Source: a virus. From it: DNA of 54,965 bases. Made by a program: the position numbers and the translations under genes. The DNA lies in the IMG/VR virus record IMGVR_UViG_3300036832_000602, positions 1-54,965 of that record; one strand, 5' to 3'. This document shows positions 3,896 to 53,461 of this stretch, piece after piece. The first letter of the stretch is position 1. Every line of letters begins with the position of its first letter. The notes beneath the pieces were generated by a model. That model saw nothing but the letters and a program-made list of their open reading frames with translations, did not search any database and was not told the DNA's origin.

Positions 3896-5110
3896 CTATG
3901 TGGCGTTCTTGGTGATCCGGGTGATGACCTTCTCGTGGCGGAGGATCCGGTGGAGCAGGTTCGAGTACTTCGGCCCGACCGTCACCTGAACCACTTCCTC
4001 GCCCGACACGTCACCGACGAAGATGTCCATCTGCGTGACGCGGGTCTGGATCGAGTCGTTGATGCGCCCGTGGTTCACGGTCACGGTCACGATGTCGCCG
4101 AGCCACAGGGCACTCGGATCCCACCAGCCCTGCTTCAAGGTCAACACATACGACGGCGTCAGGTTCGAGTCGCGCACCAGCTCGTAGATGGCGGCGTCCT
4201 CAACCGCTGGGGTCGAGGTCAGGTCGCCGTTCCCCGCCTGGAACTCCCAGCGCCCGGCAGCTTCCAGCAGCGGGTCCGTCTTCCAGCCGGTGGACAGGGC
4301 TTCGTCTACGACGTTCTTCCGCTGCGACGTGGTGCCGGGAGTGGTGCTCCCGGATATGCGCACGACGTTGGCGTAGGGCTGGCCTGTGGAGGCGTTCATC
4401 GCCCGCTGCACGTTGGTGACGTTGTCGCCGTAGGTCAGCTTCATGCCGATGTTCTGCCCACGGCCCTGCTGGTTCAGTCCGTGCGGGGGCTGTGGCCAGG
4501 TGTTGAAGGCCATTGTCGGGCTGATCTCCCACTCGAAGCCGGAGTTCAGCGTGGCGATGTTGTCGATGGCCTGGTCGATGTAAGTACCCTCCGCAGGCTC
4601 CTGTCTGCGCAGTTGAGCCGACGAAGACGCCGGGGTGAACAGCCCTTTATGGATGCCCCAGTCGCCGCCAGGCTGATCCTGGCTCCGGTCGATGATGTCC
4701 CAGGCGATCGAGCACTGGTCCACCGGTGGCTCTGGAGCCTTCCCATAGTGGAAGGTCGGCCACGGGACCATCCGGTGGGCGAGCATCCCGCGGTAGTCGG
4801 TAGCCGTGAAGTCCACCGTATGCACGTCGGGCGACGTACCGCCAGCCACGTTGCCGGCCTGCTCACCGATCGTGTCCTGGCTCGACATGAAGCGCCCGCG
4901 GAACATGAGGTGGTTGTCCCGGTAGCACATCAGGTCGGAGGTGACCTCCTGCACGTAACTGGCGTCAGCCTCCATCGCGTCCATCGTGAACGCTGCCGTG
5001 CAGGCTTCGGTCAGCATCCATGTCATCTGGCGGGAGATCGCCGTGTTCAGCTCTCCCTGCGTGACGCCCTTGGTAGTGGCCACCACGAAGTGCCAGTCAG
5101 GTCCAGGCAT
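3896..5110 (-). CDS. Tail hub / Gp37-like minor tail protein
   Basis: This 404-aa protein starts at 5110 in a TGATG overlap with the last fibre gene. The layout (N-terminal FVVATTKGVTQGELNTA, a VDFTATDYRGMLAHR segment near residue 115, and a C-terminal LGDIVTVTVNHGRINDSIQTRVTQ stretch) matches the ReqiPepy6 Gp37-like/Tal-like proteins that form the tail-tip hub of actinophages. It probably connects the distal tail ring to the fibres. It is unusual in lying after the fibre array rather than before it. The assignment rests on motif style and position. Confidence 0.65.
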   Translation of the reverse strand: MPGPDWHFVVATTKGVTQGELNTAISRQMTWMLTEACTAAFTMDAMEADASYVQEVTSDLMCYRDNHLMFRGRFMSSQDTIGEQAGNVAGGTSPDVHTVDFTATDYRGMLAHRMVPWPTFHYGKAPEPPVDQCSIAWDIIDRSQDQPGGDWGIHKGLFTPASSSAQLRRQEPAEGTYIDQAIDNIATLNSGFEWEISPTMAFNTWPQPPHGLNQQGRGQNIGMKLTYGDNVTNVQRAMNASTGQPYANVVRISGSTTPGTTSQRKNVVDEALSTGWKTDPLLEAAGRWEFQAGNGDLTSTPAVEDAAIYELVRDSNLTPSYVLTLKQGWWDPSALWLGDIVTVTVNHGRINDSIQTRVTQMDIFVGDVSGEEVVQVTVGPKYSNLLHRILRHEKVITRITKNAT

Positions 5111-8003: not shown

Positions 8004-9706
8004 CAGTTCGGGATCAGGATCACTGTGCCATTGGAGCCTGGACTTGGATTGGGCAGGCTGGCGCCACCGTTGAAGCCAGCCGCACCACCATTGGCATCGA
8101 TCGTTATGCCGGGGATGTTGTTGGGAGAGCCAATCGTTACCGAGCCACTGACTACCACCACAATGCCACCCCCACCCCCACCACCGCCTGCCGCGGCGCT
8201 CGTTGGGGAGCCTCCAGTGCCGCCCCTGGCCTGGATTGCACCAGTGCCAGCGAACGTACGGATCGCGAGCATCACGGTCCCACCCCCAGAGCCACCACCA
8301 CCACCAGGGCTGCCGGTTACGCCACCACCAGAACCACCTCCAGCACCACCGCCAACTACGACAGAGTTACCGAGGGAATACGGGTCAGGATAAGTACCAG
8401 CCATAACTGCTAGAGAGGTACGTGGTCGTGCCGAGCTGCCGGTTACGCCACCAGCTACGCCTCCACTTCCACCGTTGAAGCCGCTAGAAGAGCCGCCAGC
8501 ACCACCGGAAGCTCCAGAAGTGTTGTACAGCGAGGCGCCATTGTTACCGAGTGTGCCGGAGGCACCAGCGGCGCCAGCGGCACCGAAGGTAACTTGACTG
8601 CCAGTACCACCGCTCAGAGTGCCACCCGAAGTGAGTGCAGCGCCAGCCCCACCACCATTGGCGCCGTTACTGCCATTCCATTGGATGGTGCCGTTGTGGG
8701 TGAGGACGCCAGAGCAGAAGATGCGGTAGCCAGCCGTGCGGATGCTCACTCCAGAGTTGATGGTGCCGCCCGACAGGAACAGGTCGCGGGTCAGCGTGTA
8801 GACGTTCGAGGACGGCGCCATCCCGAGGATGGTCGAAGAGCCGTTGAAGGTCGGAGCACCATCCGAGCCGTCACCGAAGACACCCAATCCACCACCGGAT
8901 GCCACTACGTTCCCCGGCACCCAGGCTGAACCGTTCCACGTCAGCACCTGGCCGGTGGTCGGCGCGAGAGTGCCCAAGGGAGATCCGTTGATCTTCGCCA
9001 CGGCCGGATTCGGGTAGGTGCCAGAAAGGTCACCGGCAGCCGTGCCGCTCGGTGTGCCTGACGGCCCTTGTGGTCCAGTAGGACCTGTCGGTCCGGCAGG
9101 CCCAGTGGTACCGGCAGGTCCCTGTGGCCCAGGCGCCCCAGGATTTCCCGGCGGTCCAGGCGGCCCCTGTGGTCCAGTCCCACCGCCACCGCCGCCGCTC
9201 CCCGGTGAGTACATCGGTGGCCGTAGGTCCGTGATGACCGTGTTGCTGATTCCAGTGACGCTGTCACCGATGTACACCTGGGCCAGGGCAAGCTGGTTCG
9301 ATCCGAGTGGAGGCGCCACAGCACCGCCGACAACTGCAGGCTGACCTTGTACCGTCGTAAAGATGAAGTCGTTGTTGGCCCCACCATCCACGAAGCCGTT
9401 GCGTACCTGCAGTACGACGATGTCGTAGCGCTCGACCCCGGCGCCCGAGACTGCGATCGGCACAGTCTCGACGGCGTCCGACCATACCCAGTATAGACCC
9501 TCGCTCTGGACGAAGTTCCCGACGACCGTGGCCCTTCCCGGCTGGACAGTGACGTTCATGTCGGAGCCGGTGTTCTGACTAACAGTAAGGTCGGTGGAAG
9601 TACCCATCAGCGCAGCCTGCTGACCGAGGATGTCGCCGTGGAACATACGGTCGAGCTGCGCAGGGTATGAACCCAACTGCTCGTACATCGGTGTGTAGCG
9701 AGTCAT
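8003..9706 (-). CDS. Tail fibre paralog 2 with collagen-like shaft and glycine-rich adhesin tip
   Basis: This 567-aa protein has the shared MTRYTP N-terminus, ~14 Gly-X-Y triplets (residues ~177-220) and one shaft unit. It then departs from its siblings: residues ~285-567 begin [14 protein letters not shown] and become extremely Gly/Ser/Ala-rich with repeated GGGGG blocks, closing at NGTVILIPN. Poly-glycine tips of this kind recall polyglycine-sandwich adhesins such as T-even gp38 (an inference). It probably recognises a different receptor from paralogs 1, 3 and 4. The start overlaps the HNH stop as ATGA. Confidence 0.8.
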
Positions 9707-30954: not shown

Positions 30955-30983
30955 ACCTTACACCCGTTACTACCCGTTGTCAA
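30955..30983 (-). promoter_or_regulatory. Early promoter with embedded operator (leftward, 1)
   Basis: On the minus strand TTGACA (plus 30,978-30,983), a 17-bp spacer containing GGGTAGTAAC, and TAAGGT as -10 (plus 30,955-30,960). It drives the gene at 30,568-30,912. The predicted start is near 30,948. Confidence 0.75.
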
Positions 30984-31017
30984 CCCACTACGGGCACATT
31001 TTCCAGATTTCTTTTGC

Positions 31018-31311
31018 CTACCCGTGTACCCGTAGGGTGTGTACCGGGTGCGTGCGGTTGTAGCCGCACGTGGCACATTCCCCGTCCAGGTTTTGCTCGA
31101 ACCCGTGCAACGGGTTACCCTCGAACCCGACCGCGTCGGCTAGTTGCTCGAGCAAATATTCGATTTCCGCTTCATACTCGGAAATCGAAGCTTCCTGGTG
31201 CTCCTGCTCGGCCTCCATGCCCAGGGCCACCGCTACCCCGTGCAATGCCCGGTGCCCGCTAACCATCCGCTGTGCCGCTTTGACCTGGTGCTCGATCCCA
31301 CCTGCGTTCAT
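31018..31311 (-). CDS. Early small helical protein with C-terminal zinc motif
   Basis: This 97-aa protein, ATG after a leader ACGGAAACGGGG, has an Glu-rich helical middle (EHQEASISEYEAEIEYLLEQLADAVG) and a C-terminal GECATCGYNRTHPVHT segment that could bind zinc through two Cys and two His. First and only gene of its own leftward promoter. Function unknown. Confidence 0.65.
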   Translation of the reverse strand: MNAGGIEHQVKAAQRMVSGHRALHGVAVALGMEAEQEHQEASISEYEAEIEYLLEQLADAVGFEGNPLHGFEQNLDGECATCGYNRTHPVHTLRVHG

Positions 31312-31343
31312 TTCGTTACCCCGTTTCCGTTTGCCGTTACCTA

Positions 31344-31372
31344 ACTATACACCCGGTACTACCCGTTGTCAA
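31344..31372 (-). promoter_or_regulatory. Early promoter with embedded operator (leftward, 2)
   Basis: Minus-strand TTGACA (plus 31,367-31,372), a 17-bp spacer with GGGTAGTACC, TATAGT (plus 31,344-31,349). It drives 31,018-31,311. Confidence 0.8.
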
Positions 31373-31428
31373 GCGGCTACGGCACATTTCCCAGATTTCT
31401 TTTCCCCGTACCGTGCCCCGGTGTGCCC

Positions 31429-31764
31429 CTACTCGGCCTCGTACGTGAACGCCTGTAGCCGCTCGTAGATCCGCGCCAACGGGGTATCGTACCGTCCGTA
31501 GTAATCGGCCTCCCCTTCTGCCATCGCGAAGTTGGCAAACGTGATTGCCATTTCAGCGTGTGTAGCGGCAATCATGCTGGAGCGTAGATCGGTGCCCTCC
31601 TGAATGATTGCGCCGTCAACCTCGAGCGCGTAGTGCCAGCGATTGTTGCGGTAGCCGCGCCCTACGGTGCCACCCCCTACCGCCGAAATCATGATCCGCA
31701 CCTTGGGATCGCCGGTAACGTATTGCTCCGGCACCTCCACCGTGTATTCCCAGTCGCTGCTCAT
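31429..31764 (-). CDS. Early protein of unknown function
   Basis: This protein has 111 aa from the ATG at 31,764 (MSSDWEYTVEVPEQYV); an in-frame ATG at 31,803 sits at the predicted transcription start and would add 13 residues as a leaderless form. The sequence looks like a small alpha/beta domain (VRIMISAVGGGTVGRGYRN; HYALEVDGAIIQEG) followed by a long helix. No family recognised. Confidence 0.65.
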   Translation of the reverse strand: MSSDWEYTVEVPEQYVTGDPKVRIMISAVGGGTVGRGYRNNRWHYALEVDGAIIQEGTDLRSSMIAATHAEMAITFANFAMAEGEADYYGRYDTPLARIYERLQAFTYEAE

Positions 31765-31809
31765 TGCCGCCCCGTTTCCGTTTGTGTGCTCCGTTGTTGT
31801 CATACCCCT

Positions 31810-31838
31810 ACTATAGCACGGGTACTACCCCATGTCAA
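31810..31838 (-). promoter_or_regulatory. Early promoter with embedded operator (leftward, 3)
   Basis: Minus-strand TTGACA (plus 31,833-31,838), a 17-bp spacer with GGGTAGTACCC, an extended TGC and TATAGT (plus 31,810-31,815). It faces away from the rightward promoter at 31,900, so the two form the divergent pair of the genome. Confidence 0.82.
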
Positions 31839-31899
31839 CCCCTACGGGCAACATTTCCTAGATTTTCCAGAAATATGCAAAAGCCCTGGTCAAACCCCC

Positions 31900-31928
31900 T
31901 TGACAAGGGGTTAGTACCGTGCTATAGT
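31900..31928 (+). promoter_or_regulatory. Early promoter with embedded operator (rightward, 1)
   Basis: TTGACA at 31,900-31,905, a 17-bp spacer containing GGTTAGTACC, TGC then TATAGT at 31,923-31,928. It drives the gene at 31,967. Confidence 0.85.
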
Positions 31929-31966
31929 AACCCCTACACAACGGAAACGGCAAAAGGAGCAAAACA

Positions 31967-32482
31967 ATGGAAGCCGAAACAATGAGCACCACCGAGCGGC
32001 TGGATCGGGCGGGGCACCGGGGTCGCATAGCCGGCAAGGCCGATGCGGACAACTACATCGATGCTACCCCGGTGGCATTGCGTAGCCGCAACGATTGCCC
32101 CAGCCCGCTCAGCGGAGAATGGGCCGGCGAGTCGATCAAGGAGCTGCTCGGTGACCTGTTTGGGGAGCGGCCCGCGATCCGTGCCGGCAACGACGAGGTG
32201 CTCAACGCCTACGACGACCTGCAGTACCGGATCGAGAACGCCTACGAGAACGCCTACACCGAGTCCTGGTTTGCGGTGCTCGAGGAAGCTGAGGAAGCCG
32301 AGGGCACGACCGAGGCCGAGTTTGGTGACCTGCTAGCTACCCTGCTAGCCGACTCCGACGAAATCGAAGGCGTGAGCACGTTCAGCGATGTCGGGGTTAT
32401 GACGATGAACGAGGGGCTGGTTGTTCGCCTGTATAACGGCACCGAGTTTCAGGTCACCATCGTTCAGTCCCGTACCCCGTAA
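31967..32482 (+). CDS. Early acidic protein of unknown function
   Basis: This 171-aa protein, ATG after AAAAGGAG, is the first gene of the rightward arm. The N-terminal ~50 residues have RGRIAGKADADNYIDATPVALRSRNDCP; the middle is a long acidic helix (SWFAVLEEAEEAEGTTEAEFGDLLATLL). Position under the first early promoter suggests host take-over or regulation. No family recognised. Confidence 0.75.
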   Translation: MEAETMSTTERLDRAGHRGRIAGKADADNYIDATPVALRSRNDCPSPLSGEWAGESIKELLGDLFGERPAIRAGNDEVLNAYDDLQYRIENAYENAYTESWFAVLEEAEEAEGTTEAEFGDLLATLLADSDEIEGVSTFSDVGVMTMNEGLVVRLYNGTEFQVTIVQSRTP

Positions 32483-32536
32483 CGGGTACCCGGCACGGCA
32501 CCCGGCACATTTTCTGAAAAAGATTGTGCCGGGTGC

Positions 32537-32565
32537 TTGACACCGGGTAGTAACCATGCTATACT
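32537..32565 (+). promoter_or_regulatory. Early promoter with embedded operator (rightward, 2)
   Basis: TTGACA (32,537-32,542), a 17-bp spacer with GGGTAGTAACC, TGC and TATACT (32,560-32,565), ahead of the gene at 32,600. Confidence 0.85.
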
Positions 32566-32599
32566 AGACACATAACGGCAAACGGAAAAGGAGAACAAA

Positions 32600-32974
32600 A
32601 TGGGAGATCGAGCGCAGGTTTTCATTCACAACGGTGGGCACGCAGCACCGGTGGCGCTGTACACACATTCAGCCGGCGGTACGCTGGCGAGCACCGTAGC
32701 ACGAGCACTCGCTCGCAAGCAGCGGTGGGACGATCCGGAGTACCTGGCGAGGATCATCTTCTGCGAGATGGTGCGGGGCGACGAGGCCGGAGATGTTGAT
32801 TTCGGAATCGGCACGGCTCAGCATTTTGACCTCCAGCACGATCCGATCCACGTACACTCAGGGGGTGGCATCATGGACCCCACCGAGCCGCACGTGTTCT
32901 ACAACGGGGAGCGGTTCAGCTTCGAGCGGTTCATCGACCGCTACGCAGGTCGGGGTCGGAGTTTCTACCGATGA
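32600..32974 (+). CDS. Conserved-style phage protein of unknown function
   Basis: This 124-aa protein, ATG after AAAAGGAGA, begins MGDRAQVFIHNGGHAAPVALYTH, a start I associate with a widespread group of small actinophage proteins. Several His and Asp residues (GIGTAQHFDLQHDPIHVH) could form a metal site. Coupled to the next gene by ATGA. Function unknown. Confidence 0.7.
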   Translation: MGDRAQVFIHNGGHAAPVALYTHSAGGTLASTVARALARKQRWDDPEYLARIIFCEMVRGDEAGDVDFGIGTAQHFDLQHDPIHVHSGGGIMDPTEPHVFYNGERFSFERFIDRYAGRGRSFYR

Positions 32975-33297
32975 ACGCCTACAACCCCGTGTCATCGGCG
33001 GCACGGCAGGCGTGGATCGACGGGGAGAATGATCCCCTCGAGCTGTGCCGGATCGACACCGAGCACGGGGTGGTGGCACAGGTGCCGGCGTGCGAGCTGG
33101 TCGGTCGGGAGGGTACGTTTCGCCTCCCGGCCGGCAGGGCAACCTACGAGGCCGTGATGTACGACTGCGGTCGTGCCCGTAGCGATCGGATCCGGCTGGC
33201 TCGCATCGAGACCAGGGACGGTGGGTTGTACCAGGTCAACCGCTACGTCGACTGGGAACAGCCGATTGAGGTGCTCCAGTTGTTCGAGTACCCGTGA
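32971..33297 (+). CDS. Hypothetical early protein
   Basis: This 108-aa protein starts in an ATGA overlap. It is a mixed alpha/beta sequence with paired beta strands (GVVAQVPACELVGREGTFRL; IRLARIETRDGGLYQVNRYV). It shares the transcript from the promoter at 32,537. No family recognised. Confidence 0.7.
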   Translation: MNAYNPVSSAARQAWIDGENDPLELCRIDTEHGVVAQVPACELVGREGTFRLPAGRATYEAVMYDCGRARSDRIRLARIETRDGGLYQVNRYVDWEQPIEVLQLFEYP

Positions 33298-33327
33298 AAA
33301 AGTTTCTGAGAAATACCCCCTAGTGGG

Positions 33328-33356
33328 TTGACATACGGTACTAACCGTGCTATACT
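33328..33356 (+). promoter_or_regulatory. Early promoter with embedded operator (rightward, 3)
   Basis: TTGACA (33,328-33,333), a 17-bp spacer with GGTACTAACC, TGC and TATACT (33,351-33,356), upstream of the gene at 33,391. Confidence 0.85.
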
Positions 33357-33390
33357 AAAGGTACAAGGCAAACGGGAAAGGGGAAACGAG

Positions 33391-33606
33391 ATGGGAATCA
33401 GCAGACGGGAGCGGGAGGAGGCACAGGCAGCAGGGTACGTCGAGTGCTCCGAGTGCGGGCACCCGGTCGAGGAGCATGACAACGATGGGTGCTCCCACGT
33501 TGACGACGACTACCACTGCCCGTGCGACGAGCGCTTGACCATCAGCGACATCGACCGGATCCGCGCCGACTACGGCCTCGAGCCGACCGGCAATGCGGCG
33601 CCGTAG
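33391..33606 (+). CDS. Small zinc-finger-like protein
   Basis: This 71-aa protein starts at ATG 33,391 after a GGGAAAGGGG leader. VECSECGHPVEEHDNDGCSH and HCPCDE hold five Cys and several His, so one or two zinc sites are likely. Basic N-terminus (MGISRREREEA). Possibly an early regulator. Confidence 0.7.
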   Translation: MGISRREREEAQAAGYVECSECGHPVEEHDNDGCSHVDDDYHCPCDERLTISDIDRIRADYGLEPTGNAAP

Positions 33607-33619
33607 GGGAGACGGAGCG

Positions 33620-33916
33620 ATGATTAGGAATCGGTGCCCTGGCTCGAGGGAGCCAGGGCTGGACGGCAGGTTCCCCGGTGACAGCGACCGGTGCTCGCGT
33701 TGCTCGCGCAACCACGTTCGGGTGCTGGCAGATTGCACATTGGCCACGCACCCACGCGGTAACGGCAAGCCACGCGCTGGGAAACAACCGGCGCCAGGTG
33801 AGAAGCTGGGAACCATCCTGGCCCGCGAATGGCTGAGCGTGGGACTTGACCCGCGCAGCCTTCGCCAAAAGGCTGACGGAGACTGGGAGTACTACATACC
33901 AGAGGGGAAAGCATGA
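33620..33916 (+). CDS. Small Cys-containing basic protein
   Basis: This protein has 98 aa from ATG 33,620. It has CPGSREPG, then CSRCSRNHVRVLADC (~30-45), a zinc-ribbon-like set, and a basic linker before an EYYIPEGKA end. Coupled to the next gene by overlap. Unknown. Confidence 0.65.
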   Translation: MIRNRCPGSREPGLDGRFPGDSDRCSRCSRNHVRVLADCTLATHPRGNGKPRAGKQPAPGEKLGTILAREWLSVGLDPRSLRQKADGDWEYYIPEGKA

Positions 33917-34152
33917 TGGGATACGACCGGGCACGGGATCCGCAGTTGTGGGACGACCCGCCAGACGAGGACGAGGCCGAGGAGGACGACTACGAGGTTG
34001 TCCACCTTGAGGCCACAAGGGACGAGGACGAGTACACACTCGAGGACTTCGAGGCCGACCGCGCCGACCGCATCCTGGCCGAGCGTAAGGAGATGGACCC
34101 GTCCGAATACTCAGAGGGTCCGTACGTGCCGGCACACAGGCAGGGACCATGA
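33913..34152 (+). CDS. Small very acidic protein
   Basis: This 79-aa protein starts ATGATG, overlapping the prior stop. About a third of the residues are Asp or Glu (DDPPDEDEAEEDDYEVV; LEDFEADRADR). Small acidic early proteins often mimic DNA or bind host proteins; nothing here proves that. Confidence 0.65.
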   Translation: MMGYDRARDPQLWDDPPDEDEAEEDDYEVVHLEATRDEDEYTLEDFEADRADRILAERKEMDPSEYSEGPYVPAHRQGP

Positions 34153-34370
34153 CCGCCTACTACGTCAGCACCCCACAGGGGCAACTACACCTGACGGACG
34201 CCGGCAGCGACGACAGCCACACATATTGCGGCGAGATCATCGGCATCGACTGGCTAGCCGGCACCGAGACGGTAGTCGGCTCGAGGGCGTGCGGGATCTG
34301 CTACCGGGGCTTCAAGGCGGCGCAGGGCAAGCAGGGCACCATCGACCGGGCACACGAGGGGCGATCCTGA
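34149..34370 (+). CDS. Small protein with C-x-x-C motif
   Basis: This 73-aa protein starts in an ATGA overlap. It has HTYCGEIIGID and SRACGICYRGFKAAQGK, giving three or four Cys spaced like a small zinc site. Last gene before the structured RNA. Function unknown. Confidence 0.65.
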   Translation: MTAYYVSTPQGQLHLTDAGSDDSHTYCGEIIGIDWLAGTETVVGSRACGICYRGFKAAQGKQGTIDRAHEGRS

Positions 34371-34389
34371 GAAAAACCGGCTAGGTGCC

Positions 34390-34419
34390 TTGACAACGGG
34401 TACTAACCCATGCTATAAT
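34390..34419 (+). promoter_or_regulatory. Early promoter with embedded operator (rightward, 4), drives the structured RNA
   Basis: TTGACA (34,390-34,395), an 18-bp spacer with GGGTACTAACCC, TGC and a consensus TATAAT (34,414-34,419). The expected start, about seven bases downstream, is A34,426, which is exactly the first base of the closing helix of the RNA element. Confidence 0.88.
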
Positions 34420-34425
34420 AGCTTT

Positions 34426-34580
34426 ATGTTCACCGGATCCCCGCAACGTCCCTGCCCGCAAAGGCGAGCATACGGGGTCGGCATTCAGGCAAGGTACCGC
34501 TCCAACGGGTTTTCAGGTTCGTCCGACTCCCAGGAGCACCGCTAAGGCCTTACCCCTCCCACAGGGGATCCGGTGGACAT
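34426..34580 (+). ncRNA. Structured RNA / 5' leader element ahead of the ArdC-like gene
   Basis: Bases 34,426-34,442 pair with 34,564-34,580 as a 17-bp helix with one G-U wobble and no mismatch. Inside, GGGGTCGG (34,474-34,481) pairs with CCGACTCC (34,523-34,530), and a small CGC-AAAG-GCG hairpin lies at ~34,456-34,465. The element starts at the predicted transcription start and ends 42 bases before the ATG at 34,623. It does not match a tRNA, tmRNA or any riboswitch I know. It may be a processed small RNA, a leader controlling the downstream operon, or both. Confidence 0.65.
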
Positions 34581-34622
34581 ACCAGACAAACGGCAAACGG
34601 GAAACGGAAAGGGAAACGGGAA

Positions 34623-35498
34623 ATGGCATACGCGAAGAAGAGCAAGGAAGAGAAGATCGAGGAGGTCAAGGCGGCGCAGGAGAAGCTGACGGCGGCGCTG
34701 GAAGAGATGGTCACCGGGGAGGATTGGATCCGGTGGCTGAACTACCAGACCAAGTTTCACAAGTACTCGGCTAACAACTGCATGCTCATCGTGCTTCAGA
34801 ACCCCAACGCTACGCAGGTAGCCGGCTACGAGACCTGGAAGAAATTGGGCCGGCAGGTCATGAAAGACGAGAAGTCGATCCGCATCTTCGCTCCGATCAA
34901 GGGGGCGCGCACCGAGCAGGATCCGGCTACCGGCGAGGATGTCACCCGCACCTGGCTGCGCTTCATGCTGGTGGGTGTGTTCGATGTGAGCCAGACAACC
35001 GGCGATCCGCTCCCCGAGGCGCAGCATCCGGTCCTGCTCGACGGGGAGGCGCCCGAGGGGCTGTACGACGCCCTAGCGGCGCAGGTAGCCGCGGCCGGCT
35101 ACGCGCTCCACAGGGGGGACTGCCGCGGAGCCAACGGCTACACCGACTACCTGGCTCGCGTGGTCAAGGTGCGCGACGACGTTTCCGAGGCGCAGGCGTG
35201 CAAGACGCTGGCGCACGAGCTGGCCCATGTGCTGCTCGATCACGAGCACCGCGGCCACGGCGCCGAGGCGACCATCACGCGGGACCGGATGGAGGTCGAA
35301 GCCGAGTCGGTCGCCTACATCGTGTGCAGCTTGCACGGGCTGGACTCGAGCGGCTACACGCTCGGGTACGTTGCCCACTGGGCCGATGGCAGCCTCGCCA
35401 AGGTACGCGAGACCACCGCCAAGGTTGCCGAGGTCGCCAAGCGGATCCTGGACACTACCGAGGTGCCCGCCGCCGACCGTGAGCTGGTGGCGGCATGA
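34623..35498 (+). CDS. ArdC-like antirestriction protein: ssDNA-binding domain plus metallopeptidase
   Basis: This 291-aa protein begins with an ArdC-type N-terminal domain (residues ~15-110: FHKYSANNCMLIVLQNP, GYETWKKLGRQVMKDEKS, IRIFAPIKG), known in plasmids to bind single-stranded DNA and protect incoming DNA from restriction. The C-terminal half has a zinc metallopeptidase signature, LAHELAHVLL (HExxH, ~197-206), with a downstream glutamate in EVEAESVAYIVC, as in ImmA/IrrE-like proteases. The combination is the classic ArdC layout. It is first in its transcript, under a strong early promoter, which suits early protection against host defence. Confidence 0.85.
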   Translation: MAYAKKSKEEKIEEVKAAQEKLTAALEEMVTGEDWIRWLNYQTKFHKYSANNCMLIVLQNPNATQVAGYETWKKLGRQVMKDEKSIRIFAPIKGARTEQDPATGEDVTRTWLRFMLVGVFDVSQTTGDPLPEAQHPVLLDGEAPEGLYDALAAQVAAAGYALHRGDCRGANGYTDYLARVVKVRDDVSEAQACKTLAHELAHVLLDHEHRGHGAEATITRDRMEVEAESVAYIVCSLHGLDSSGYTLGYVAHWADGSLAKVRETTAKVAEVAKRILDTTEVPAADRELVAA

Positions 35499-35746
35499 AG
35501 CGGCTCGTGACGGGGGCAGCCTTCGCCGGGTTGCTCTCGTTCGGGCTGGTCGGGTGGACCAGTATGCACCACATGGCAGACCCAGACCCAGCGCCCAGCT
35601 TCCGACCGACGTGGTTGGACTGCGCCGGCTACCAAGGCGACAAGTACATCACTTACTCGCTGATGCAACCCGGCGACCGGCAGTATTACCGGATCTGCCG
35701 GCACTGGCTCGCAGTCGAGAACTCGCATACGGAGGATGATCGGTAA
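35495..35746 (+). CDS. Small secreted or membrane-anchored protein
   Basis: This 83-aa protein starts in an ATGA overlap with the ArdC-like gene. A basic N-terminus and hydrophobic stretch (KRLVTGAAFAGLLSFGLVGW) form a signal peptide or anchor. The remaining ~55 residues contain two Cys (LDCAGYQG, RICRHW) that could form a disulfide outside the membrane. Possibly an envelope-acting early protein; unknown. Confidence 0.7.
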   Translation: MKRLVTGAAFAGLLSFGLVGWTSMHHMADPDPAPSFRPTWLDCAGYQGDKYITYSLMQPGDRQYYRICRHWLAVENSHTEDDR

Positions 35747-36033
35747 TGCCGACTCCTACCGGGCTGCCGAAGCCAGGCGAGGTCTGGCGCCGGACGTACA
35801 GCCTGCCGCCCGACTGGATACCGGAGACGGTCACGTTCATCGTGATCCGACGTGGCCGCGGCGACTACTTCGCCCTGTGGGTACACGTCCACTCCGTCAA
35901 CGGGGAACCGGTGGCGCCGGCACAGCAACAGAAACTCTGGGTTGATGCCGCCTACTGGCACAGCCGGGGCGAGCTGGCCTACGTCGGCAAAGCCGGACCC
36001 GAGACTCGCAAGCGCATCGGACTACCCGCCTAG
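35746..36033 (+). CDS. Hypothetical protein
   Basis: This 95-aa protein, ATG overlapping the previous stop (TAATG), is rich in Trp and Pro (PPDWIPETVTFIVIRRGRGDYFALWVHVHS) with SH3-like beta spacing and ends with a basic tail. Last in its transcript before the next early promoter. Unknown. Confidence 0.68.
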   Translation: MPTPTGLPKPGEVWRRTYSLPPDWIPETVTFIVIRRGRGDYFALWVHVHSVNGEPVAPAQQQKLWVDAAYWHSRGELAYVGKAGPETRKRIGLPA

Positions 36034-36051
36034 AAATTATCCGCCAGTGAC

Positions 36052-36079
36052 TTGATAATGGGTACTAACCTGCTATACT
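36052..36079 (+). promoter_or_regulatory. Early promoter with embedded operator (rightward, 5)
   Basis: TTGATA (36,052-36,057), a 16-bp spacer with GGGTACTAACC, TGC and TATACT (36,074-36,079), ahead of the gene at 36,128. The variant -35 and shorter spacer make it weaker than its siblings on paper. Confidence 0.78.
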
Positions 36080-36127
36080 AAACCTAACGGCAAACATACA
36101 AACAACCAAACGGAAAGGGAAACGGAA

Positions 36128-36598
36128 ATGGCAAACGACATCAACGACAACGAGGCACCCAACCTGGAGGAGCTGGAGCGAGTGCAGCGGTACATCAGCG
36201 GGCTGCGCCAGATGGCAGACTTCCTGAACGAGCACCCGGAACTGTGCCCGCTGGACTCCGACGCTACCTACAACCCGCACTCGCAGTACGTGCGGTCGGA
36301 CGAGGCCAAGGCGAAGCTGGCGCACGCGGTACGCACCGGTGGCACCTGGAACAAGGTCAGCAGCGACATCTTCTTCAAGGTCGAGCGCAGCTTCGGCCCG
36401 CACCTGCTGCGAGTCATGGCCTACCGCCAGGACGTATGCGAAAAGGTCAAGACGGGCGAGCGGGAGGAAGAGGCCATCAGCCCACTGGTCGAGAAGCAGA
36501 TCGCGGCCATCCGCGAGAATGCGCCGAAGCACAAGCGGATGGTCGAGACCTTCGAGTGGAAGTGCCCGCCGTCCCTGCTGGACACCGGGGAGGCGTGA
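36128..36598 (+). CDS. Helical protein of unknown function
   Basis: This 156-aa protein, ATG after GGAAAGGGAAACGGAA, is predominantly helical (NLEELERVQRYISGLRQMADFLNEHPEL; EAKAKLAHAVRTGGTWNKV) with an acidic N-terminus. It is followed by two membrane proteins in the same transcript. No family recognised. Confidence 0.72.
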   Translation: MANDINDNEAPNLEELERVQRYISGLRQMADFLNEHPELCPLDSDATYNPHSQYVRSDEAKAKLAHAVRTGGTWNKVSSDIFFKVERSFGPHLLRVMAYRQDVCEKVKTGEREEEAISPLVEKQIAAIRENAPKHKRMVETFEWKCPPSLLDTGEA

Positions 36599-36702
36599 TG
36601 TTCGAGGTATGGCTCACGACCATGATCGCTGTCTCGATCGTGGGGGTCGGGCTCTGGCTCCTGTCTCGCTGGCATGGCAAGCAGAAAGCAGGCAAGTCGT
36701 GA
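36598..36702 (+). CDS. 34-aa single-pass membrane peptide
   Basis: The ATG overlaps the upstream TGA (TGATG), and its stop overlaps the next GTG (GTGA). A single hydrophobic segment (LTTMIAVSIVGVGLWLL) is followed by a basic HGKQKAGK tail. Such small membrane peptides often regulate membrane enzymes or exclude superinfection; no evidence here. Confidence 0.6.
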   Translation: MFEVWLTTMIAVSIVGVGLWLLSRWHGKQKAGKS

Positions 36703-37076
36703 TCCAGCTCTGCTTTGGCGCCTTCCTCACCTACGCCGGCATCCTGGGGCTGAGCAACCACACCGGCAGCGGCAGCGTCGACGGCATCATGATCGTGCTC
36801 GGTCTGGCGTTCGTCGCGGGTGGGCTCGCCAAGCGCATCAACAAGAAGACCAGGCGGCTCGGTGGCCAGACACCGGACAAGTCGTTGGGCGGCGCGCTGC
36901 TACAACGCCAGCAGCTACAGCAGCAACAACAGCCAGCACCACAGCAACCAGCCGCCTGGTACCCCAATCCTGACGGCTCCGGTGACTGGCGCTGGTGGGA
37001 CGGCAAGCAGTGGACGGTCGCACACACGAGCGACCCTGAGTTTGGAGGGAACGGGAATGCCAACAAAGACCAATGA
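36699..37076 (+). CDS. DUF2510-type membrane protein
   Basis: This 125-aa protein starts with GTG in a GTGA overlap. Two membrane segments (~3-18, LCFGAFLTYAGILGL, and ~29-45, GIMIVLGLAFVAGGLA) are followed by a Gln-rich linker (LQQQQQPAPQQPA) and a C-terminal DUF2510 motif, AWYPNPDGSGDWRWWDGKQW. DUF2510 is almost confined to actinobacteria and their phages, often at the cytoplasmic side of membrane proteins. This is the best single indicator of the host group. Confidence 0.78.
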   Translation: MIQLCFGAFLTYAGILGLSNHTGSGSVDGIMIVLGLAFVAGGLAKRINKKTRRLGGQTPDKSLGGALLQRQQLQQQQQPAPQQPAAWYPNPDGSGDWRWWDGKQWTVAHTSDPEFGGNGNANKDQ

Positions 37077-49557: not shown

Positions 49558-49745
49558 TGGCCAGAGTCAAGCGCTGCGATCAGTGCGGCAACAGCATCTG
49601 CCTATCGTCCTCGGCTGACGACTTCTGCGATGCAGCCTGCTACATCCGCTGGCTGGTCGTCACGGGCCGGGTCACCCGACGTCGTGCCATCGGGTACGTG
49701 AAGTGCCGACTGCAAGGCCTGCCGACCGCCGCTCTCATACCGTGA
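49554..49745 (+). CDS. Small zinc-ribbon protein
   Basis: This protein has 63 aa from ATGATG overlapping the primase stop. RCDQCGNSICLSS and DDFCDAACYIRWLV give four or five Cys of a zinc ribbon, with a basic C-terminal tail (TRRRAIGYVKCRLQ). Coupled to the methyltransferase-polymerase by GTGA. May be a replication accessory. Confidence 0.7.
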   Translation: MMARVKRCDQCGNSICLSSSADDFCDAACYIRWLVVTGRVTRRRAIGYVKCRLQGLPTAALIP

Positions 49746-52700
49746 CCGCTACCTACATCGTCGGCGACGTGTTCCAGGGACTGGCAACCCTCGAGCCAGG
49801 GAGCGTTGACCTGGTCGTCACGAGTCCACCCTTCCTGGCTGTCCGCACCTACCTTCCGGTGGACGATCCTTTGAAGCACAAGGAGATCGGCTCCGAGCCG
49901 AACCCTGCCGTGTTCATCGACGTCATGCTCGACCTAGTCGAGGCCATCGCGCCGGCACTCGCCCCGCACGGATCGATGTGCCTGGAGTTTGGGGACACCT
50001 ACGCCGGCTCGAGCGGCACCAACGTCAGCGAGCGCCGCAAGATCGGCGCGCAGGAGCTGGCTACCGATGAGGAGTACAAGCAGATCTACGAGCGGGATAT
50101 CCCCTACCGGCGCGCCGGCTACCGCGAGTTCGCAACCTCCAGCTCCAAACCACGCACTGTCGAAGGCTGGCCGCTCGACAAGTCGAAGTGCATGATCCCT
50201 GAACTGATAGCCATCGCGCTCGCCTACGGCTTCAACCCGCTCACCGGCCGCACCACCGACCGCTGGCGTATCCGCAATCTCGTGACGTGGTGCCGACCCA
50301 ACCCTCCCATCGGAGCGGACGGCGACAAGTTCCGCCCAGCTTCCACCCGTATCATCGTTGCCACCAAGGCGAAGGACCGCTACTTCGACGGGTTCGGGGT
50401 ACGTGTGCCGTCCCTGACCCCGCCTCGAGAGGGCTACCCGGTGACCCCAGACCAGAAGATGGCAACGGCTACAGGGGGCTCCTGGCACATGGACCGCAGC
50501 GCCATGAACGGGGAAACCCGTCCCCTCTACGACTGGTGGGAGATCCCGACAGAGAGCTTCAAGGGCAGCCACTACGCCACCTATCCGCGCAGCCTGGTGG
50601 AACCGCTCATCGTAGCCATGTGCCCCGAGCGCGTCTGCGGCACCTGCGGACAGCCCAGCCTGCGGGTCATGGGGGATACGAAGTACCTGAACTCCCGCAA
50701 CGAGGAAGCCTCGTACCTCGCCATGAACGATTCCAAGGCGAGGATGGCCCCTGGTGTGAACCAGTTCAAGCACGACACCGTCCACCACATCGTGCAGGAG
50801 TCGGTCGGCTGGTCGGACTGCGGTCACGACAACTGGCGCCTCGGACGGGTGCTCGACCCTTTCGCCGGGTCCGGCACCACCCTCCTCGTCACCTGCGGAC
50901 TAGGACGTGAGAGCATTGGGATCGACCTCGACCACCGCAACCTCACCCTGGCGCAGAACCGCATCGGCATGTTCCTCCAGAACGTGATCGAGCTACCGCT
51001 GGACACGCCGCTGCCGCTTCAGACACCACAGGTAGAGCCTGAGCCTGTGGTGCAGGCGCCAGAACCGGTGGTGCTGGAGGTGCCAAAACCGACACCACAG
51101 CCCCAGCCAGCGGTCACCGAGCCGCTATGGAGGGAACTGCCGAAGCTCATCGAACTGCCAGACGAGTTCGAGGTAGTGCGCCGGCACCCGCTCGCCAAGT
51201 GCGAGGAGTGCCCGCTGGCGAACGAGCAATCGATCTTCGTGCCGTCCAAGCAGGTCGAGGACCCGCACATCGTCATCGTGGGTGAGGCTCCGGGCGCACA
51301 GGAAGCAAAGCACGGTATCCCGTTCGTCGGTCCGTCCGGCAAGATACTCGACGCAGTGCTAGCGGGTCAGCGGCTGCAGCGAAAAGAAGCCTTCATCACC
51401 AACGCCTGTCTATGCCGGCCGAAGGACAACGCCACGCCCACCGCCAAGGCCGTGCGGGCATGCGCGCCGCGCCTGCTCGAGGAAGTCACTGAGGCGACCA
51501 AGGGCGGCGCCCCGATTGTGGCTATGGGAAACGTGGCTGCCTCCGCCATCCTCGACTACAAGGTGTCCATCCTCGAGCACCGCATGGGGCTGCCGAAGGA
51601 ATCGCACCTCTACCCAGGCGTGCCGGTCATTCCGACCATCCACCCTGCCTACGCGCTACGCGTGCCCGAGGCGCTGCCGCTGCTGGTGGACGACATCGCC
51701 AAGATCAACGGCGACGTCGGCATGGGCTGGGAGGAACCGCAGTACCGTACCTTCGAGGTTGCACTGCAGGCCCGCCAGGCACTCCAGCAGCTACGCAAGC
51801 TGGCCCCAGCCTCGGTGGTGGTCGACATCGAGGTCGGCGCCGAGAAGGACGAGACGTTCATCCGGCCCGACAAGCTGCGGCTGCTCTGCGTGGGGCTGGC
51901 CTATGCCCCCGGCAAGGCGATCGTGATCGGTGAGCAGGCCCTGCACGACCTCGGTGTGCAGCACGAGCTATCAGCCCTACTGCGCTCATCGAGGGTGGTC
52001 GCGCACAACGGCAAGTTCGACCTCGCCGGCTTGAGACACATCACCACAGGGGCACGACTGGGCTTCGACACGATGCTAGCGAGCTACGTCTGCGACGAGC
52101 GGAAGGGTACCCACGGGCTGAAGTACCTGGCGATGGAACGGCTCGGTGCTCCAAACTACGCAACCCTGATCCACAAGTACATCTCCAGCAAAGGTGAAAA
52201 CTTCGCTCACGTTCCGACTGAAGTCCTGCACAAGTACAACGCTTACGATGTGGTGTGTACCTGGAGCCTCATGGAGTTGTACGAGGAACGGATGCGTCGG
52301 GAGGATCTGACCAAGGTACACGACATGCTCGTGCGCGGCTCGAACATGCTGCTCCCTGTGGAGCAGAAGGGACTGCGGGTCGACCTCGAGTACATGCACA
52401 AGCTCGACACCGAGTTCAGCGACCAGATCGAGGGCCTTGACCGCAGCATAAGGAAATGGGTGGAGAACGCCCGTTCTCCCCAGCAGATCACCAACGCCCT
52501 GCGCAAGCTGGGGATGAACGCGCCGTCCACCGGCATCGAGGTCCTGCAGAAGCTGGTTGAGACAGCAACCGGGCCGGCGCTCGAGTTCCTTACCCAGCTA
52601 ATGGAGCACCGACGCCTGTCCAAGCTGCACGGTACCTATGTGAAGGGCATTGAGGACCGACTCGAGAACGGTTACGTACACCCGACCTTCCTACTGCACG

Positions 52701-53461
52701 GCACCACGACCGGGCGTCTGTCATGCCGCAACCCAAACCTGCAGAACATCCCACGGGAATCGGCTATCAAGCGCATGTTCGTGCCTGACCCCGGCAAGGT
52801 GTTCGTGCAGGCCGACTACAAGGCCATTGAGTTGCGCGTGATCACCTGCGAGTCACGCGACGAGTATTTGAGGAGCATGTTTGCGGAGGATCGTGACATC
52901 CACTCGGAGGTGGCTGAGAGGTTCTTCGGGCCGGGCTTCACCAAGGAGCAGCGTGTCTGGGCTAAGGGCGTTGTATACGGACTCAGCTACGGACGTGAGG
53001 CGTACGCTCTCGGCCAGGCTGCCGGCATTCCGACAGCGGAGGCGCAGACCTACATCGACACGTTTCTGGGGATGATCCCCGGCGCCATGGCCTGGCGTGA
53101 CCGGATCGCTCACCAGGTACTCGAGACGGACCAGGACCTGACTACCGTCTACGGGCGCCACCGGCGCGTGCTGCTGCTCACCGACGAGAACAAGAAGGAC
53201 ACCTTGAAGGAGTCCTACGCCTTCATTCCACAGAGCACCGCCAGCGACATCTGCCTGTCGGCTGCGATCGAGCTACACGAGAAGCACGGACTCGACATCC
53301 GGCTTCTCGTACATGACTCGATCCTGGTCGAGACGGACGAGCCCGACGAGGTGGCGACGCTGATGCACGAGGTCATGCCGAGGGTCGCCGCCGAGACCTA
53401 CAGTTCCTTCGTCCCCTTCCCAGTTGAGACTGCAGTGGGCACGAACTGGTCGGAGGTGTAG
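49742..53461 (+). CDS. Four-domain DNA enzyme: DNA methyltransferase - uracil-DNA glycosylase - 3'-5' exonuclease - family A DNA polymerase
   Basis: This protein has 1239 aa from GTG 49,742 (GTGA overlap). (1) Beta-class methyltransferase, ~1-420: SPPF at 28-31 (motif IV) before FAGSGTT at 374-380 (motif I), with a Cys insertion (CPERVCGTCG...SDCGH). (2) A Pro-rich linker (~420-470). (3) Family-4-like UDG, ~480-670: CEEC at 487-490, GEAPG at 514-518, CLCRP and RACAPR Cys for Fe-S, and HPAYALR at 634. (4) Exonuclease: VVVDIEVGAE (D695, E697), AHNGKFDLAG, YNAYDVV. (5) Pol A: DYKAIELR (1025), R1071...K1075...Y1079...YG, and HDS (H1191, D1192). All motifs look intact. Tyr1079 is at the Pol I 762 position. 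The frame is unbroken throughout, so this is a fusion, not a cluster of separate genes. Confidence 0.9.
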   Translation: MTATYIVGDVFQGLATLEPGSVDLVVTSPPFLAVRTYLPVDDPLKHKEIGSEPNPAVFIDVMLDLVEAIAPALAPHGSMCLEFGDTYAGSSGTNVSERRKIGAQELATDEEYKQIYERDIPYRRAGYREFATSSSKPRTVEGWPLDKSKCMIPELIAIALAYGFNPLTGRTTDRWRIRNLVTWCRPNPPIGADGDKFRPASTRIIVATKAKDRYFDGFGVRVPSLTPPREGYPVTPDQKMATATGGSWHMDRSAMNGETRPLYDWWEIPTESFKGSHYATYPRSLVEPLIVAMCPERVCGTCGQPSLRVMGDTKYLNSRNEEASYLAMNDSKARMAPGVNQFKHDTVHHIVQESVGWSDCGHDNWRLGRVLDPFAGSGTTLLVTCGLGRESIGIDLDHRNLTLAQNRIGMFLQNVIELPLDTPLPLQTPQVEPEPVVQAPEPVVLEVPKPTPQPQPAVTEPLWRELPKLIELPDEFEVVRRHPLAKCEECPLANEQSIFVPSKQVEDPHIVIVGEAPGAQEAKHGIPFVGPSGKILDAVLAGQRLQRKEAFITNACLCRPKDNATPTAKAVRACAPRLLEEVTEATKGGAPIVAMGNVAASAILDYKVSILEHRMGLPKESHLYPGVPVIPTIHPAYALRVPEALPLLVDDIAKINGDVGMGWEEPQYRTFEVALQARQALQQLRKLAPASVVVDIEVGAEKDETFIRPDKLRLLCVGLAYAPGKAIVIGEQALHDLGVQHELSALLRSSRVVAHNGKFDLAGLRHITTGARLGFDTMLASYVCDERKGTHGLKYLAMERLGAPNYATLIHKYISSKGENFAHVPTEVLHKYNAYDVVCTWSLMELYEERMRREDLTKVHDMLVRGSNMLLPVEQKGLRVDLEYMHKLDTEFSDQIEGLDRSIRKWVENARSPQQITNALRKLGMNAPSTGIEVLQKLVETATGPALEFLTQLMEHRRLSKLHGTYVKGIEDRLENGYVHPTFLLHGTTTGRLSCRNPNLQNIPRESAIKRMFVPDPGKVFVQADYKAIELRVITCESRDEYLRSMFAEDRDIHSEVAERFFGPGFTKEQRVWAKGVVYGLSYGREAYALGQAAGIPTAEAQTYIDTFLGMIPGAMAWRDRIAHQVLETDQDLTTVYGRHRRVLLLTDENKKDTLKESYAFIPQSTASDICLSAAIELHEKHGLDIRLLVHDSILVETDEPDEVATLMHEVMPRVAAETYSSFVPFPVETAVGTNWSEV

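Follow-up and report, generated by a model that had tools for sequence, protein, structure and literature searches.

A long terminal dyad at the predicted transcription start upstream of an ardC-like phage gene, and its possible role as a 5'-terminal clamp

Introduction

In its setting, the element described here appears to be closest to the leader of ardC on the plasmid p576. According to the parts of PMC8708921 that deal with these leaders, the ardC leader of p576 has two short inverted repeats and a strong promoter with a repressor operator, and its authors think it most likely that the repeats lengthen the half-life of the RNA; in pLS20, about 600 bp with multiple inverted repeats are found upstream of ardC. 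Stem-loops are among the mRNA-protecting features named in the relevant section of a review (PMC7509114). RNAs with a different role are also known: the put RNA of phage HK022 is about 70 nt long and has two stem-loops, with putL located just after PL (in the portion of PMC9378689 that describes it), and conAn2 RNA works at the start of a long operon (in an excerpt of PMC8955417).

The locus analysed here belongs to a virus, IMG/VR record IMGVR_UViG_3300036832_000602, and the window is the whole stretch of DNA that was analysed, with a length of 54,965 bases. Judged from the sequence, it resembles an uncultivated phage like those of actinobacteria. Its terminase resembles those of Streptomyces phages (43.9-46.0% identity in the best eleven matches), and is 61-68% identical in nine of the 41 loci from uncultivated IMG/VR contigs. 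The structural genes run mostly leftward and the genes in the right part of the record mostly rightward. A search for tRNA and tmRNA genes found none. It is worth adding that a single frame of 1252 aa at 49703-53461 (+) matches the N6_N4_Mtase DNA methylase, uracil-DNA glycosylase, 3'-5' exonuclease and family A DNA polymerase.

The likeness of this locus to p576 and pLS20 is one of layout. The gene is ardC in each case, p576 has a strong operator-controlled promoter and repeats in the leader, and pLS20 has inverted repeats upstream of ardC, some of them more than 100 bp apart (same parts of PMC8708921). Those are, however, Bacillus conjugative plasmids with several short repeats or with 400-600 bp of repeats, whereas the phage has a single pair of 18 bp, located at +1.

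Results

The features of the locus, in coordinates of the window, are the following.

34390..34419 (+), promoter TTGACA-18-TATAAT with a TG extension (12/12 matches; predicted +1 at 34426)
34398..34409 (+), operator-like dyad GGGTACTAACCC in the promoter spacer (scans; pattern search)
34425..34442 (+), 5' arm of the terminal helix (fold, dyad scan; 34426-34442 counting transcribed bases only)
34426..34545 (+), leaderless open frame of 39 codons, with codon usage that is not coding-like (codon score, tblastn)
34443..34563 (+), interior of 121 nt, with a fold no better than shuffles (fold z)
34564..34581 (+), 3' arm of the terminal helix (fold, dyad scan; 34564-34580 pairs with the transcribed bases)
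34582..34622 (+), purine-rich AAACGG leader and ribosome site (same kind as sibling leaders; accessibility prediction)
34623..35498 (+), ardC-like anti-restriction gene (291 aa; Pfam ArdcN, Peptidase_M78; PHROG 7245)

The two arms form 18 pairs in the DNA (34425-34442 with 34564-34581) and 17 in the predicted transcript, the extra DNA-only pair being 34425/34581. T34430-G34576 is the only G-U pair. The 17-bp closing helix with one G-U that the initial annotation had placed at 34426/34580 is therefore confirmed, and it was unmatched in 100 shuffles: with one G-U and spans no longer than 250 allowed, the terminal dyad of 18 pairs is the longest helix in the window, the maxima in 100 dinucleotide-preserving shuffles of the window being 12 to 16. 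A separate run of 8 shuffles, with a slightly different rule, gave no helix of 15 pairs or more. The terminal dyad is far beyond chance. In the predicted ensemble the arm bases are at most 0.17 unpaired, with the maximum at the very end, and an arm duplex closed by a four-base loop comes to about -33 kcal/mol.

The element as a whole is predicted to fold into one long-range helix and a branched interior, at -69.7 kcal/mol (z -4.26, with 0/200 shuffles as stable). This score is owed to the arms, because without them z is -0.38: for the interior, 34443-34563, the fold energy is -38.1, the mean over shuffles being -36.8, and 68/200 shuffles are as stable. A larger span, 34420-34640, folded whole, gives z -0.55 (57/200 shuffles as stable). 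The internal 8-bp helix and small hairpins noted earlier are present in the predicted fold, but at this z the interior is not what is expected of a structured non-coding RNA domain; internal helices as part of a structured RNA are not supported, and the modest score does not exclude a fold. Since the interior is not beyond chance, the helix is the part that has been selected. The reverse strand of the element has z -3.26, as expected from a dyad, and the fold therefore cannot tell the strand. The element shows that one terminal dyad alone can yield a significant score for a whole element (z going from -4.3 to -0.4).

The promoter in front of the element had been called strong, and it is: it matches at 12/12 positions and is TG-extended. 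It is the sole site reported (at 9/12 or better) in a scan of 33600-35800, and it is the one exact TTGACA-N17to19-TATAAT in the whole window, where 0.01 are expected. Its -10 hexamer ends at 34419, which puts the predicted +1 at 34426, so that the proposed coincidence of the transcription start with the first base of the element stands, as a prediction. Downstream of the promoter and element there is a long same-strand gene block.

Scans found eight promoters, at 30.9-36.1 kb (window 30983-36081), with a GGGTA(C/G)TA(A/C)CCC-like (GGGTANTANCCC-like) dyad in the spacer, and of these the one at 34390 is nearest to consensus. The other seven, also from scans, are:

31900, 32537, 33328 and 36052 (+), related spacer-dyad promoters
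31838, 31372 and 30983 (-), related spacer-dyad promoters

With at most one mismatch, GGGTANTANCCC has 8 matches in the window against 1.9 expected. Six of them fall in the spacers of five of the eight promoters, two overlapping at one promoter, and the other two, at 9663 and 48230, are outside these spacers. The spacer dyad looks like a common operator for early control, where the label early comes from the position of the eight promoters and from gene content. In an observation that goes beyond this phage, the pattern TTGACANNNGGTANTANCN{1,3}TGNTATANT matches 38 stretches in IMG/VR contigs; in the 37 examined, several of them near-duplicates, GC is 0.32-0.47, and this suggests that the promoter with a palindromic spacer is a recurring phage type.

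The product of 34623-35498 matches Pfam ArdcN (6.5e-9) and Peptidase_M78 (1.5e-5), as well as PHROG 7245 'anti-restriction protein' (6.1e-16). The two Pfam matches bear out the earlier description of the downstream gene as ArdC-like, and the 42 bases stated to separate it from the element are there too, as 34581-34622. Seven of the eight leaders in the window are short and A/G-rich and have no clamp. If the element is removed from the 34390 leader, what remains looks, by eye, like the sibling leaders, and the element is thus a module between +1 and a standard leader. The predicted accessibility of the ardC ribosome site with and without the element is equal within 0.02, and a simple scan of 33600-35800 gave no terminator-like sites. 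A switch of the usual kinds, such as a riboswitch or attenuator, is therefore unlikely, neither a terminator nor a hidden ribosome site having been found as an expression platform.

The Rfam search gave no match across the whole window. When 34380-34640 was searched up to E 5, one match was returned, outside the element and with 14.2 bits where 40 are needed. No Rfam family thus reaches its gathering threshold, in agreement with the earlier statement that the element matches no known class. In phages, blastn of 34300-34700 and of 34100-37000 found no match; in plasmids the sole match was of query 34588-34626, in the purine leader, to a Vibrio record (87.8%). The 394 genomes searched are a sample of the class to which a Propionibacteriaceae assembly belongs; with at most two candidates per genome scored, 45 of them had one match each, of 17-40 bases and E 0.003-0.1, which were treated as noise. 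Three of 11 related contigs had a match at E<=1, one being in the purine leader at 1.3e-6; the remaining matches in these contigs are of 14-22 bases, two of them, from one contig, inside the element at E 0.2-0.4. The exact arm pattern was matched once in viral contigs, in L103 at a protein start, and this was treated as chance. The record itself has no second copy of the element.

A covariance model (R1) gave 198.7 bits for the window and a best E of 0.26 in 45 other sources, and being built on one sequence it has a short reach. In the 394 genomes, with stricter filters and in a set that holds no positive control, it had 0 matches. The element is an orphan in the sets searched, and is probably best regarded as a large, long-range form of a known device, the 5'-terminal mRNA structure; on present evidence it is not a new RNA class. 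As in a 5'-terminal mRNA stabiliser, a stable helix includes the first transcribed bases, with +1 as predicted.

With ArdC as the query, no relative was found in viral contigs, and one locus came from genome contigs. In contigs related by terminase or capsid, most of them fragments, ardC was found in 0/11 and in 0/2 further contigs. At E<=0.001 there were ardC matches in 49 of the 394 sampled genomes, and 30 of their loci were obtained. The leaders of ardC were surveyed over 300 nt upstream at 39 other loci (41 were given; L059 and L060 were dropped as too short). Long-range dyads at p<=0.05 were found in 5/39 (L151 and its near-identical counterpart L152, L081, L159 and L077), where about 2 are expected; this is weak, and we do not claim that ardC leaders generally carry dyads. 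An initial dyad scan that took whole loci had many matches in coding DNA and is excluded from these counts. Plasmids of Glutamicibacter and Gulosibacter have other long-range dyads (L151:574-757, L152:574-757 and L159:621-772), of 12 bp with a span of 184 and 11 bp with a span of 152, ending 59 and 44 nt before ardC.

The related contigs G001 and G002 have the replication core in common with the window (helicase about 65%, polymerase part about 60%; the comparison was of these two, G406 being left out). No ardC match was found in G001, G002 or G406, and all three have repeated early promoters of their own, mostly TTGATT-18-TATAAT. The leader set consisted of 38 distinct promoters, 30 from pieces of these three genomes and 8 from the window, with hexamers from a short list selected after an earlier promoter scan. 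Where promoters agreed in all of their first 30 transcribed bases, one was counted, and the G002 copy of one hairpin leader was thus dropped; the L011 and L016 promoters were left out.

A short helix starting from +1 to +4 is present at p<=0.05 in 7/30 leaders of the relatives, by a base-shuffle null and with homologous leaders among the 30, and the same test at eight other offsets gave 0, 0, 0, 1, 1, 2, 2 and 2 of 30. A helix score of at least 6 was reached by 5/30 at +1, 3/30 at +21, 2/30 at +25 and none at the other six offsets. One of the +1 hairpins, of 9 bp, is identical in two genomes. This enrichment is supporting, not decisive. A long-range clamp was found in 0/30 leaders of the relatives, the sole p<=0.05 in the long-range test being the short 9-bp hairpin, and in the window only the 34390 leader has a +1 helix (17 pairs, 0/200 shuffles).

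An ATG opens the element, exactly at the predicted +1. The same is true of 10/30 leaders of the relatives and of 3/8 in the window, whereas at the eleven next offsets ATG is found in 0-3 of 30 and in 0/8, respectively. Leaderless starts are common in actinobacteria, and the other two +1 ATGs of the window lead into open frames of 124 and 126 aa. The frame 34426-34545 stops before ardC. Its codon score of -0.17 is equalled or exceeded by 39% of 934 open non-coding frames and is in the lowest 1% of coding stretches, and tblastn in phages found no protein relative. A translated peptide from this frame is unlikely, and ATG at +1 may be a preference of the start site and not a codon. At two promoters of related phages, L054:6368 (+) and L057:11746 (-), a purine-rich ribosome site is followed, by eye, by a four-codon frame (MTPD* and MYPE*), possibly a short leader peptide.

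A separate observation concerns five of the sampled genomes (G125, G146, G166, G204 and G247), where a rod of 166-173 nt is closed by TGCCTTTCGGC/GCCGAAAGGCA:

L075:2574-2745 (-), rod
L081:1155-1320 (+), rod
L086:565-737 (+), rod
L090:3112-3282 (-), rod
L161:1497-1669 (-), rod

The closing pattern is present in 6/394 genomes, the sixth, G357, having an unrelated interior; a reversed control pattern had no match among the genomes listed. In all five rod genomes a same-strand ardC match follows 0.2-5 kb downstream of the rod, where ardC overall is found in 49/394. Proximity to ardC was how four of the rods first came to notice, and only the pattern search, run on all 394 genomes, is not subject to this selection. 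When the five are aligned, 18/62 predicted pairs are changed on both sides with pairing kept, and 32/62 have a break or gap in one sequence or more; the RNAalifold covariation term, +1.2, is slightly unfavourable. Four of the five rod loci were scanned against Rfam, and no family matched. The 3' arm has, by eye, a promoter-like TTGC(CA/GC)-N16-(TACAAT/TAAAAT/CACAAT) within the fold and pointing to ardC. A promoter-like sequence inside a fold is also what is described for the Frpo single-stranded DNA promoter (in part of PMC11541004, the main text of which contains neither 'ardC' nor 'actino'). The rod thus resembles a single-stranded-DNA (Frpo-like) promoter and is a candidate for one, as a lead and not as proof; near ardC, it may outweigh the clamp in importance.

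Discussion

The reading that we favour, at a little less than an even chance, is that the element clamps the 5' terminus of the early ardC transcript. If the gene is transcribed from the 34390 promoter and the RNA folds in the cell as predicted, the first 17 nt of the ardC RNA would pair with 34564-34580, leaving the 5' triphosphate end in a nearly blunt duplex. The clamp would shield this end from pyrophosphohydrolase and from 5'-end-dependent RNases, and early in infection the anti-restriction message would thereby survive longer. The interior, at 121 nt, would serve as a loop whose sequence is of little importance. For a strong helix with the first base among its pairs, shielding from 5'-end-dependent decay would be the simplest role. 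This reading is favoured because the dyad of 18 pairs exceeds those of the shuffles (12-16), its outer end lies on the predicted +1 and the arms are paired in the ensemble; because 7/30 leaders of the relatives have +1 hairpins against 0-2/30 elsewhere; and, in preference to a switch, because the accessibility of the ribosome site is unchanged and no terminator was found.

Several points weigh against the clamp. No homologue was found and so there is no covariation; a 17-bp helix with a 121-nt loop far exceeds the hairpins of the relatives, of which 0/30 have a long-range clamp; and the other seven early leaders of the phage are without one. RNase III might cleave the helix. The 3' arm is transcribed about 140 nt after the 5' arm, and protection would therefore be late.

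Stabilising 5' stem-loops of the ompA type are short hairpins. The element is like them in that a stable helix lies close to the 5' end and the ribosome site further downstream is predicted to be free (the stem-loops being as described in part of PMC7509114), and unlike them in that a 17-bp helix closes 121 nt; stabilisation is suggested here by analogy. Frpo/ssi, too, have a folded element ahead of an anti-restriction gene. There, however, the promoter is inside the folded strand (part of PMC11541004), whereas the sole promoter-like site in 33600-35800 is upstream of the phage element, outside it and ordinary double-stranded.

It is conceivable, though unlikely, that the element has no designed RNA function and is a small insertion with terminal inverted repeats, MITE-like and TA-flanked, that entered an ordinary leader at its -1/+1 T-A. 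IS630/mariner elements make TA-flanked insertions, and the 18-bp arms (18 paired positions with one G-T, as in the terminal repeats of a MITE) have TA at both outer ends (34425-34426 and 34580-34581); the interior looks random, and the leader without the element is like those of its siblings by eye. The dyad by itself, however, produces TA at both ends, which is no independent sign of duplication, and an insertion precisely at +1 would have to be coincidental. The further copies or parent element of a MITE were found neither in the record itself nor in the 394 sampled genomes (at most two candidates scored in each), plasmids or phages, and the one match in viral contigs is a coding start. A role for the arms as DNA sites of a regulatory protein, such as a looping repressor, with RNA pairing as a by-product of their inverted order, is clearly less probable than an insertion. 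It would account for the 10-mer GGATCCGGTG, present in both arms, occurring exactly three times in 305 bp (34431-34440 minus, 34566-34575 plus and 34726-34735 plus), with a further exact copy at 3943 and, at up to one mismatch, 15 matches against 6.1 expected. The arms are not palindromes, however, sibling early promoters have no exact GGATCCGGTG nearby (one-mismatch copies are at 33553, 33932 and 35904), and the promoters already have the spacer dyad in common. The third exact copy, at 34726-34735 (+), is inside the ardC coding frame and has no explanation beyond coincidence with a coding stretch.

Position is what speaks for an RNA of the antitermination or polymerase-binding kind, like HK022 put or the RNA part of conAn, heading the early operon, which we consider improbable, slightly less so than the DNA sites: the element is at the very start of the transcript from the most consensus-like promoter, before a long same-strand block, and put, too, is transcribed from the beginning of an early operon in a phage (in the portion of PMC9378689 that describes it). 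There is no likeness in anatomy, put having two adjacent compact stem-loops in about 70 nt (same portion) and the phage element a long-range closing helix. The interior is not beyond chance, no sequence is conserved with any relative, and the 33600-35800 scan gave no terminator-like site. That the element encodes a leaderless leader peptide of 39 codons, whose translation competes with closing of the helix, is very unlikely. The ATG at the predicted +1, enriched there in the phage group (10/30 relatives, 3/8 in the window), fits such a peptide; the codon score of -0.17 falls among those of open non-coding frames, the peptide has no protein relative in phages, an AUG within a blunt 17-bp helix should initiate poorly, and the ATG may reflect start-site preference. 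Least probable of all is a kinetic gate, with the leaderless AUG at +1 and the clamp being mutually exclusive. A ribosome loading before the 3' arm is made would leave the 5' end open and the message short-lived, and without an early ribosome the clamp would shut and the ardC mRNA would last; the output of anti-restriction protein would then be a readout of how well supplied with ribosomes the cell is just after infection.

Conclusion

The initial annotation had taken the element as a real unit and not a chance dyad. This is supported in that there is a non-random feature at the predicted +1, with a helix beyond chance whose outer end falls on the predicted start, and in that some leaders of related phages have hairpins anchored at +1; it does not extend to a folded RNA domain, the interior having z -0.38. 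A folded domain of a new class is not upheld, with the interior at chance level and no homologue in the sets searched. If the clamp is true, its setting recalls the repeat-bearing ardC leaders of conjugative plasmids, and, if it protects the message, a phage device for protecting the RNA end would give the anti-restriction protein a head start on host defence.
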